This document shows positions 1 to 2,838 of a stretch of DNA of 64,000 bases, piece after piece (position 1 is the stretch's first letter; every line of letters starts with the position of its first letter). A model generated the notes under the pieces. The model saw only the letters and a list, made by a program, of their open reading frames with translations. It did not search any database and was not told where the DNA came from. A program made the position numbers and the translations under genes. The stretch is from Planctomycetota bacterium (GTDB lineage Bacteria > Planctomycetota > UBA1135 > GCA-002686595). The stretch covers positions 62,001 through 126,000 of the forward strand of contig PKCK01000030.1 in NCBI GenBank assembly GCA_002862085.1. Direction: 5' to 3'.

Positions 1-1248
1 TCCACCGAGGAGGAGCCAGGCGATCGCGCCCGCCGCCGCGAGGCCCGCCGCGATGGCTCCGGGCCTCCAGCGCAGCTCGGCCACGTCCGCGGCGGCGCCG
101 TCCGGTGCTGGACGGAACCGACGGCCCAGGGCGAGCAACGGCCGCTCGATGAAGCGATAGGAGATCGACGACACCAGGAAGGCCAACCCGAGCACGATCG
201 CGACCCGCGCAGGGGTGGGGATCACGTAGGGGTAGGGGACACTCCCCCACACGCCGCCGGCGAAGAAGATCGGCACGTGGTAGATGTACAGGCCGTAGCT
301 GATCCGCCCGACCGCCCGGAGCGGCGCCGCGCGAAGGAGGCGGGCGTGCGGAGCGCGCGAGCCGGACCAGGCGATGCCCGACACCACGAGCGCGAGGCTC
401 AGGCACGGGAAGCCGATGACGCTGAGACCCAGCTTGATGGAGTTCAGGGCTCTCGGGTCGCCCTCGACCGCCGGGATCGCCAGGAGGTCGTCGAGCAGGC
501 CCAGCGCTTTCATTCCCCTCAGGTTGAAGACGAGCCACATGACCGTGCCGGCCACGATCAGGCCGCGGGCGAGGGCCCTGGAGTCACGGATGCGCTGCTC
601 GCTGTAGGCGAGGAGACCGCCGAGGCCGAGGCTCGCGAAGCGAATCGTGGAGGAGCGGAAGACGAACGCACTCATGGCCTCGGTGCGGTCTCCCCAGGCC
701 GGCCCCGAGTAAGCCCACAGCAGCGAGCCGATCGCGAGCGGGAAGACTCCGAAGAGGATCACCCGACGACTCGCTCGCGGGCTGAGGAGCGCGACGATCG
801 GCGGCCAGAGCAGGTAGTAGTGCTCCTCGATCGCGAGGGACCATGAATGCGGCAGCGGGCCGGGCTCGTCCATGGCCATGAAGCCGAAGTTGGACGTGTA
901 GGTCGCGCACGTCAGGGCCTGCTGCCAGTTCATGTACGGCAGCAGGATCAGGATGGCGAGGTAGTAGATCGGGAAGATCCGCAGGAACCGTCGCATCAAG
1001 AAGAAGCGCAGCGGCACGTTGTTCCCGCAGTCCACCAGCAGGATCCGGGTGATCAGGAACCCGGACAGCACGAAGAAGAGGTCGACGCCGAAGTCGCCCG
1101 GCAGCACGATGGTGCGGATCAACGCAACCGTCTCTCCGAAGACGTACATCGGGAGATGGATCCAGATGACGAGCAGGACCGCGACCCCTCGCAGCCCGTC
1201 GAGCTCGGGCACGTGGTCCTTCCGGAAGCTTCGAGGCGCGGACGGCAT
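1..1248 (-). CDS. Acyltransferase 3 (OafA/YrhL-like) membrane protein, C-terminus cut by window edge
   Basis: A polytopic inner-membrane O-acyltransferase that probably acylates a cell-surface glycan or lipid. About 416 residues are visible from the ATG at 1248, and the reading frame stays open to base 1. The N-terminus has the family's typical opening (PELDGLRGVAVLLVIWIH), then FGVDLFFVLSGFLITRILL, and about residue 120 an HSWSLAIEEHYYLLWP block. That block matches the conserved WSLAVEEQFYL signature of acyltransferase family 3. At least nine hydrophobic segments follow, with ISYGLYIYHVPIFF near the end of the visible part. The family is clear; the acyl acceptor cannot be told from sequence. 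It lies downstream of the selenolipoprotein gene on the same strand, about 235 bp away and separated by hairpins, so co-transcription is doubtful. Confidence 0.9.
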   Translation of the reverse strand, partial: MPSAPRSFRKDHVPELDGLRGVAVLLVIWIHLPMYVFGETVALIRTIVLPGDFGVDLFFVLSGFLITRILLVDCGNNVPLRFFLMRRFLRIFPIYYLAILILLPYMNWQQALTCATYTSNFGFMAMDEPGPLPHSWSLAIEEHYYLLWPPIVALLSPRASRRVILFGVFPLAIGSLLWAYSGPAWGDRTEAMSAFVFRSSTIRFASLGLGGLLAYSEQRIRDSRALARGLIVAGTVMWLVFNLRGMKALGLLDDLLAIPAVEGDPRALNSIKLGLSVIGFPCLSLALVVSGIAWSGSRAPHARLLRAAPLRAVGRISYGLYIYHVPIFFAGGVWGSVPYPYVIPTPARVAIVLGLAFLVSSISYRFIERPLLALGRRFRPAPDGAAADVAELRWRPGAIAAGLAAAGAIAWLLLGG

Positions 1249-1393
1249 GCCCTCAAGGCTAACCCGCAGGGGGGGCGGACTCACCTTCGGCGCGGTGATC
1301 GGCGAAGCGCAGCTGGCGCTGTCCCGGGCTGCCGCTGACGCCCCGCGCCGCTCGCTCGAACGGACCCGGCGAGCCCCCGGAGTCGCCGTCCCA

Positions 1394-1483: not shown

Positions 1484-1663
1484 TCACTTGGGGTCGTTCG
1501 TGGCCGCCTCCAGGTCGGCGTCGGCGCTGGAGGAGTCCTTGTCTTCGGCCTGCTCCACCGGAGCAGGATCAGAGCCGCTTCATCAGCCGTCCGGGGACGG
1601 GCAGCTGGTCAGGAGGACCGCCCCGACGGCGGCCCCGGCGAGGAGCTGGAGGTGTTTCTTCAT
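1484..1663 (-). CDS. Small lipoprotein with two consecutive in-frame TGA codons (predicted Sec-Sec selenoprotein)
   Basis: Read from the ATG at 1663, the frame gives a textbook type II signal peptide (MKKHLQLLAGAAVGAVLLTSC, lipobox LTSC, Cys21) and PSPDG. Two adjacent TGA codons follow at 1585-1583 and 1582-1580 (residues 27-28). The frame then stays open for 31 sense codons (SGSDPAPVEQAEDKD, then an acidic Ser/Asp/Ala/Glu tail) to a third TGA at 1484-1486. The codons after the double TGA are strongly GC3-biased like the neighbours, and the tail looks like a surface-exposed disordered segment, so the reading continues past the stops. A strong hairpin with a GGU loop lies 12 nt after the second TGA. 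I infer translation as a 59-residue lipoprotein with vicinal selenocysteines, perhaps forming a diselenide or binding a metal. The alternative is a 26-residue peptide ending at the first TGA. I recognise no named family. No good ribosome binding site is visible. Confidence 0.7.
1549..1567 (-). promoter_or_regulatory. Predicted bacterial SECIS hairpin for the Sec-Sec lipoprotein
   Basis: On the minus strand the bases read CCTGCTCC, GGT, GGAGCAGG: a perfect 8-bp stem with a 3-nt GGU loop. The stem starts 12 nt after the second TGA, and the loop starts 20 nt after it (23 nt after the first). Known bacterial SECIS elements lie inside the coding region just downstream of UGA. Their apical loop is usually about 16-37 nt away and carries a guanine early in the loop for SelB contact. 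All of those features are met. There is no U-tract and the frame runs through the hairpin, so it is not an intrinsic terminator. Confidence 0.7.
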
Positions 1664-1744
1664 GGATGTCGTCCGGATGCCGCGCCTCGGCGGCGTTCAC
1701 GACCGAGCATCCGCGGATCACCCGCCCACGTCATGTTTGGCTTG

Positions 1745-1752
1745 TGTATACA
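1745..1752. promoter_or_regulatory. AT-rich palindrome TGTATACA in the divergent selenoprotein intergenic region
   Basis: The 203-bp gap between the two divergent selenoprotein genes contains one AT-rich island in a very GC-rich setting, centred on TGTATACA. Read in either direction it gives TATACA, a partial match to a -10 box, but no convincing -35 box lies at the right spacing on either strand. It is the most likely place for divergent promoters or an operator, but this is weak evidence. Confidence 0.2.
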
Positions 1753-1866
1753 TGCGCTTCCGAGCCGAGTCATCGGCGCCGACGAGCGTACGACCGGGTG
1801 CCAGCGATCGCCGATCGCCTCCCGCCGGGCACCGCCGATCGCACCCACCCTGCCCCACCCTTCGCC

Positions 1867-2838
1867 ATGCACCTGACCCGCCCCCTCCAGGCCGGAGCCA
1901 TCGCGCTCGTCCTCGGCACGGCCGCGGCCGCGCCGTTGCTCGCGCCTGCACCTCCCGCGTCCGACCGGCTCCCGAAGCCCTCCCTCGAGACCTTCCGCCA
2001 GACCGAGGCGACCACCTTCGAGGACTACGCCGGACGCGCCGTCCTCATCGAGTTCTTCGAGCACTGGTGAGGCGCCTGCCGCGGACAGGTCCGACACCTC
2101 AACAAGCTCCAGAAGGAGTTCGGGGACAAGGGCCTGTCCGTCATTGGCGTTGCCAGTGACGACCAGGACGCGACCGACGAGTGGATCACCAAGGCCCGGG
2201 CGAAGTACGCCTACGCCTTCGACCCCCTGGGTGAGCTGATGAAATCGGTGGGGCTCTCGTCCTACCCGTCGGCGCTGCTCGTCGACTCCAGCGGCCGCAT
2301 CGTCTTCGGGGGGTACCCCGGAGAGATCGACGACGAGATGGTCGAGAAGGCCGTCCGCGGCGCGCTGACCGAGCCCATCTTCCAGTGGCCCGATGCCCTC
2401 GAGGACGCCGCCGACGCGATGCGCGCCGGGAAGCTGGGCAAGGCCATCTCCGAGGCCGAAGCCGCCGGCGACGAGCACGCCGAGTACGTCGACGAGCTCG
2501 TCGGGCTGCTCGACGGCCGCGTGGACATCCTGAAGGAGGCCCACGAGACCGGCGACTACCTGGCCGTCGTCGAGATGGCCGAGGAGCTCGAGGAGGCGAT
2601 CGACGGTCGCGAGCAGGAGGCGAGGGTCCAGGAGCTGGTGAAGGACATCACCAAGAACCGCGACAAGCGCATGGTGCTCGAGGCGCAGAAGGACATCGCC
2701 AAGATGCTCTCCAAGAAGATCAAGCGGAAGGACGTCAGCAGGCTGATCAAGAAGCTCGAGAAGCTCCGCGCAAAGCACCCCGATACGATCATCGACATCG
2801 AGGTCGATGAGGCGATCGAGAAGCTCCGCGCGATCTGA
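1867..2838 (+). CDS. Exported TlpA/thioredoxin-like selenoprotein, active site W-Sec-G-A-C
   Basis: A periplasmic thiol-disulfide (here selenol) oxidoreductase of the TlpA/ResA-like thioredoxin fold. The ATG at 1867 is chosen because a signal peptide (MHLTRPLQAGAIALVLGTAA) follows directly. Residues 55-67 read AGRAVLIEFFEHW, then TGA at 2068-2070 (residue 68), then GACRGQVRHLNKL. Thioredoxin-fold proteins have WCxxC here, so the TGA replaces exactly the N-terminal nucleophilic Cys, and Cys71 is the partner. The frame continues without a stop for 255 codons: SVIGVASDD, the cis-proline loop (Tyr133-Pro134), VDSSGRIVFGGYPG, then a roughly 140-residue charged helical C-terminal extension not usual in TlpA. 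Total 323 residues. Read as a plain stop, the N-terminal piece would end before the active site. The gene is divergent from the Sec-Sec lipoprotein and followed by a strong terminator. No ribosome binding site is obvious. Confidence 0.85.
2082..2093 (+). promoter_or_regulatory. Candidate SECIS hairpin downstream of the TlpA-like TGA
   Basis: Starting 11 nt after the TGA, CGGA and TCCG can pair around the loop CAGG, placing the loop 16 nt from the TGA. The core GGACAGGTCC recalls the AGGUCU loop region of the E. coli fdhF element. Competing folds exist: a CCTG/CAGG stem at 2075-2089, a TGAGG/CCTCA outer pairing that includes the TGA itself, and a 6-bp hairpin about 35 nt downstream. The element is weaker than the one in the lipoprotein gene and needs proper folding analysis. 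Confidence 0.4.

Follow-up and report, generated by a model that had tools for sequence, protein, structure and literature searches.

A predicted small lipoprotein gene with two consecutive in-frame UGA codons and a SECIS-like hairpin in a planctomycete genome

Results and discussion

A lipoprotein frame with tandem TGA codons

Exploring a window of 64,000 nucleotides (the whole stretch of DNA analysed here), we found on its minus strand a short frame that carries a lipoprotein signal, two consecutive TGA codons and 31 further codons before its final stop. We predict that this frame encodes a small, lineage-specific lipoprotein with two adjacent selenocysteine residues (Sec-Sec, UU), a reading that concerns one genome only and to which we assign a probability of about 0.6. 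With TGA read as Sec, the conceptual translation from 1663 to 1484 (-) is MKKHLQLLAGAAVGAVLLTSCPSPDG-U-U-SGSDPAPVEQAEDKDSSSADADLEAATNDPK-stop. The features of the locus are collected in Table 1.

Table 1. Features of the small lipoprotein locus and its surroundings (window positions)
Feature	Position	Strand	Details and basis
Reading frame, 59 codons, small Sec-Sec lipoprotein candidate	1484..1663	-	ATG 1663-1661, final TGA 1486-1484; sequence and codon-usage score
Predicted lipoprotein signal peptide, residues 1-20, and Cys21 codon (1603-1601), lipobox LTSC	1601..1663	-	sequence, lipobox pattern scans
Tandem in-frame TGA TGA, codons 27 and 28 (1585-1583, 1582-1580)	1580..1585	-	sequence
SECIS-like hairpin, 8 Watson-Crick pairs, loop GGU 1559-1557	1549..1567	-	20 nt from second UGA, 23 nt from first
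203-bp region separating the small lipoprotein gene from the TlpA-like selenoprotein gene, the two starts being divergent	1664..1866	.	sequence
Acyltransferase-like ORF, ~200 nt downstream of the small gene, codirectional	1-1284	-	name by inspection
Exported AhpC-TSA/TlpA-like selenoprotein, UGAC active site, TGA 2068-2070	1867..2838	+	family match, relatives

The preliminary description of this DNA had pointed to a lipobox LTSC with Cys21, a PSPDG motif and a tandem TGA, all of which we recovered as described, the tandem TGA at 1585-1580, in a frame on the minus strand. The predicted signal is ordinary-looking, with KK, a hydrophobic core and LTSC; by inspection and pattern, MKKHLQLLAGAAVGAVLLTSC carries the basic n-region, hydrophobic core and lipobox with Cys of a lipoprotein. 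The region 1664-1866 gave no match to a sigma-70-like promoter. An antisense ORF on the plus strand (1019-1876) was considered as a real gene and rejected, the codon scores of its register being negative here.

The stretch behind the TGA pair resembles coding sequence

The preliminary description had also counted the 31 open codons as evidence for a protein, and this argument did not hold: in 482 kb of the GC-rich own genome, 174 of 234 TGA-ended genes are followed by at least 31 open codons, so an open frame after TGA means little. The codon score of the small frame was 7.9 bits before the TGA pair and +8.8 bits after it, and the remaining five frames after the pair scored from -1.1 to -32.2 bits. 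The tail's score was reached by a share of 0.842 of in-frame gene stretches, by less than 0.01 of wrong sense frames and by 0.346 of in-register antisense stretches. When 270 called genes served as the training set, the tail scored 11.5 bits, a value reached by 10 of the 234 post-stop stretches; among these ten are two real selenoproteins and four stretches that overlap with a different called gene. By codon score, an in-frame UGA flanked by coding sequence, a criterion for bacterial selenoproteins, is thus seen here.

The tail was said to be acidic, and we indeed counted nine acidic residues and no Arg. Among the 174 open post-stop peptides none was Arg-free and one had at least eight acidic residues, by a criterion set after the peptide had been seen. 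Stopping at the first TGA would yield a lipoprotein with six mature residues only, which has no parallel among the 31 lipoprotein-like N-termini of the 482 kb. A TGA occurs within 60 codons in three of these N-termini, one of them the small frame, which scores 7.0 bits; the remaining two, at 0.1 and -33.2 bits, look non-coding.

These counts bear on the strongest competing explanation, namely that the tandem TGA is the chance end of an ORF of 26 codons, or of an untranslated stretch, and that hairpin and coding-like tail follow it by coincidence. It gains from the frequency of open frames and of equal scores (10/234) after TGA stops, and from the tandem TGA itself, which ends 3 of 235 genes in the own-genome sample; TGATGA occurs 26 times in the window. 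We nevertheless regard chance as unlikely, since it requires the codon score, the Arg-free acidic tail (0/174) and the GGU hairpin described next (0/12,405) to coincide behind one lipoprotein signal.

A GGU-loop hairpin depends on rare synonymous codons

The hairpin, CCTGCTCC-GGT-GGAGCAGG at 1549-1567 (-), has a perfect 8-bp stem and folds in isolation at -13.3 kcal/mol. Formate dehydrogenase-type bacterial SECIS elements have an apical loop that begins with GGU, as in E. coli fdhF. The small-gene hairpin shares with them the perfect stem and the GGU loop and lies 20 and 23 nt from UGA, but, unlike them, it would serve two consecutive UGAs. A strong GGU-loop hairpin in frame, as claimed in the preliminary description, is present, and it passes the published bacterial SECIS model (PMC13188914, section 5), which asks for a stem of 4-16 bp, a loop of 3-9 nt with G in its first two positions, a distance of 16-37 nt from UGA and an MFE of at most -7.5; the corresponding values here are 8 bp, GGU, and 20 and 23 nt. 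A search of Rfam returned nothing relevant.

Such hairpins are scarce in the background. Of the 1,150 TGAs of the window, 1.0% are followed by a stem of at least eight Watson-Crick pairs whose loop has G in its first two positions, and the same is true of 74 of 12,405 in-gene positions. When the loop has to begin with GGT at 16-37 nt, no in-gene codon position out of 12,405 is left, and among the 1,150 TGAs of the window just two are, which must be those of the small gene since both of these qualify. The small gene's is also the only TGATGA in the window that is followed by a stem of at least seven Watson-Crick pairs.

The 5' arm is written in the codons CCT (6.1% of Pro codons) and GCT (5.0% of Ala codons), and these adjoin TCT and GAT; a run of four T-ending codons of this kind was found at none of 12,779 gene positions. 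Synonymous recoding according to the codon use of the genome restored an 8-bp stem in 24 of 20,000 trials, or in 29 of 20,000 when the loop was defined more strictly; none of 300 control stretches had such a stem or reached p <=0.01. The same test on six known selenoprotein sites gave p <0.05 only for L134 (0.0185), the others ranging from 0.093 to 0.9955; the result for the small gene is thus stronger than genuine sites usually show, and we count it against the Sec-Sec reading that most known sites do not pass. Overall folding energy was unexceptional, with 369 of 2,000 recodings as low and z from -0.35 to -1.34; it was likewise ordinary for most other selenoproteins tested, and we set it aside as a discriminator and base the case on the particular hairpin.

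The genome encodes the Sec machinery and further likely selenoproteins, most with GGU hairpins

The own genome (4.39 Mb in 132 contigs) contains selA, selB, selD and tRNA-Sec (selC), each above its family cut-off; the tRNA-Sec scored 70.8 bits and has the anticodon tca. All four genes whose presence the preliminary description had made a test of its reading were thereby found. The selD match (G000 C12:18773-19720 (-), L063) contains one TGA and may itself encode a selenoprotein.

A search of the own genome with PF00578 gave 14 matches, four of them with one internal TGA, and a scan of 482 kb listed 51 TGA sites with coding-like flanks; a redox motif was absent from most of them, and UAGC, UGPC and a SelW-like CxxU were among the exceptions. 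Six further likely selenoproteins were noted, at L136 (214 and 11530 (-)), L134 (12584 (+)), L139 (7665 (-)), L098 (1606 (+)) and L095; one has a SelW-like CxxU motif, and the others have the redoxin/TlpA-like motifs UAGC, UGPC, UGPC, UMGC and UPPC.

For comparison we used seven sites, namely that at 2068 in the window, L095, L098, L134, the two in L136, and L139 (same gene as L094). They were drawn from 482 kb of the 4.39 Mb genome and from the PF00578 matches with a TGA, and were chosen by coding flanks and a redox motif before GGU loops were counted. Four further sites, L122, L125, L135 and L136 +7172, were not counted; they resemble either non-coding frames or a gene end with a second gene behind it. 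Also omitted was selD, in which the position of Sec had not been found.

Five of these seven sites are followed by a loop that begins with GGU and is closed by at least four Watson-Crick pairs, at distances of 17 nt (L098), 20 (L134), 21 and 23 (L136) and 31 (L139); four of the stems have six pairs and that of L134 has four. The same arrangement occurs at 145 of 12,405 in-gene positions and after 23 of 1,150 window TGAs. No GGU-loop hairpin was found at 2068 or L095, and pooled UxxC sites, mostly from relatives' orthologues of the TlpA-like neighbour, have one in 3 of 27 cases; given these absences, the hairpin is no universal mark here. The small-gene hairpin thus belongs to a type found elsewhere in this genome and exceeds the other examples in its number of pairs, though the type is not universal here. 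A first survey of 25 sites of the W-U-xx-C type had suggested a clade without canonical hairpins; that conclusion is now limited to the neighbour's subfamily, the wider own-genome set giving 5/7. RNAalifold detected no consensus structure among 25 UxxC sites.

Search for relatives of the small lipoprotein

Protein searches reading through stops, in sets of 61, 81, 154 and 392 genomes that overlap and each include the own genome, returned no credible homologue of the small lipoprotein. The best E-value outside the own genome was 0.00113, from a hit whose frame looks non-coding. Weak matches (15 loci, L119, L120 and L141, with L013 left out) were rejected as out of frame or due to composition only. 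A pattern scan of genome contigs matched 595 stretches, none of which was confirmed, and beside the neighbour's homologues, in 19 stretches of 4-20 kb, the filter found no UU lipoprotein and no syntenic counterpart. The small protein had no Pfam match, no PHROGs match and no NCBIfam match above cut-off; its sole NCBIfam match was NF038083 (E 0.036; score 13.9 bits, cut-off 100), and it matched none of the models NF041115, NF045648 and NF040734 of known double-Sec or vicinal CU families.

Homologues with CC or UU at codons 27-28, by which the preliminary description would have had its interpretation confirmed, were accordingly not found in the sets searched. That Sec-Sec interpretation is supported in part: the Sec genes, the agreement with the SECIS model and the GGU hairpins at 5/7 sites favour it, and no credible homologue in these sets speaks for or against it. 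Given that the neighbour's closest homologue is only 54% identical, a fast-evolving 59-residue lipoprotein may escape such searches, and its absence does not refute the reading.

That no set searched contained a homologue also speaks for chance, and the want of a second sequence for comparison, in a single genome of 132 contigs, speaks for decay or artefact, that is, a former Cys-Cys or other lipoprotein in which two codons were turned into stops, or a base-calling or assembly fault. We consider decay or artefact improbable, and more so than chance: two adjacent nonsense changes with the remaining frame intact would be unusual, and decay would hardly be expected to yield a hairpin made of rare synonymous codons. 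Taken together, these two alternatives account for about one chance in three. It is very improbable that the UGA pair is a selenium- or termination-sensing leader, in which stopping or readthrough regulates the acyltransferase-like ORF ~200 nt downstream on the same strand and the peptide matters little, since a leader would not need a full lipoprotein signal, the minus strand of 1250-1950 gave no terminator-like site, and folding of 1400-1500 was not unusual (z 0.58).

A proposed Sec-Sec lipoprotein

In the Sec-Sec reading, the mRNA of 1663-1484 (-) would be translated in an organism that has the Sec genes, and the GGU-loop hairpin just downstream of the UGA pair would recruit SelB with Sec-tRNASec. 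Given that the hairpin lies at 20 and 23 nt, inside the range of the genome's selenoproteins for both UGAs, we propose that Sec is inserted at both. Cleavage of the signal peptide before Cys21 and lipidation of that residue would leave a predicted mature peptide of 39 residues, anchored to the membrane, in which Sec-Sec occupies positions 7-8 and the tail is acidic. UGA followed by U is a strong stop context in E. coli, and it counts against the Sec-Sec reading that codons 27 and 28 must both be recoded with a single hairpin to serve them and that the first UGA is followed by U. For a single UGA in E. coli, Sec insertion is reported to be 30-40% efficient (PMC4513850).

As to function, our most likely guess is a membrane-tethered two-selenium redox partner of the divergent TlpA-like selenoprotein, or a binder of soft metals or selenium. 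That one GGU hairpin directs Sec at two UGAs, giving a tethered diselenide or diselenolate that serves the TlpA-like neighbour or captures soft metals or selenium, is somewhat better than an even bet in our estimate; the diselenide or metal-site chemistry of the pair is what we infer from its two adjacent Sec residues.

A 2026 review (PMC13188914) counts 119 families or subfamilies of bacterial selenoproteins, and its Table 1 has UxxU and CU motifs and no UU. Among the titles and abstract starts listed by searches of an open-licence library, none describes a bacterial Sec-Sec protein. The UxxU proteins of Table 1 (metal-binding NF041115, Prx-like and FmdB-like) likewise hold two close Sec in a small redox or metal-binding site, but their Sec are two residues apart rather than adjacent, and there is no sequence match. 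MbdU (NF045648, a metal-binding double selenoprotein) and SaoC (NF040734, Cys-Cys-COOH), also in that table, have a vicinal chalcogen pair, which is Cys-Sec (CU) in them and UU in the small lipoprotein.

If the reading is true, a membrane-anchored peptide would carry a natural Sec-Sec pair and with it a vicinal diselenide or diselenol, and the question is raised whether one SECIS hairpin can decode two UGAs in succession. Since such genes would be truncated or overlooked by gene callers, the class could be larger than known.

The divergent TlpA-like neighbour

The neighbour at 1867-2838 (+) has an N-terminal signal-like stretch and belongs with the UGC/UxxC TlpA/redoxin selenoproteins listed in Table 1 of PMC13188914, whereas the small lipoprotein has no thioredoxin domain. 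It was matched at E <=1e-8 in 60 of the 61 genomes searched, with one TGA in most of the best matches listed; given its UGAC motif and TGA-carrying relatives, the window already holds one sound selenoprotein. Many of the relatives have GGT at 17 nt, with no clear stem. The figure of 54% identity given above refers to the neighbour's closest full-length homologue, and NF041054 (NCBIfam) was a weak match. A TlpA alignment scan of genome contigs gave as best named match to the neighbour a Planctomycetota MAG at 32% identity; Sec forms were missed by that scan because a Cys pattern was used. Gene callers would cut the neighbour at 2068. In a relative, L035 around 1034 (+) encodes a lipoprotein-like protein upstream of the TlpA homologue; it has one candidate Sec, in a UPFC motif with thioredoxin-like surroundings.
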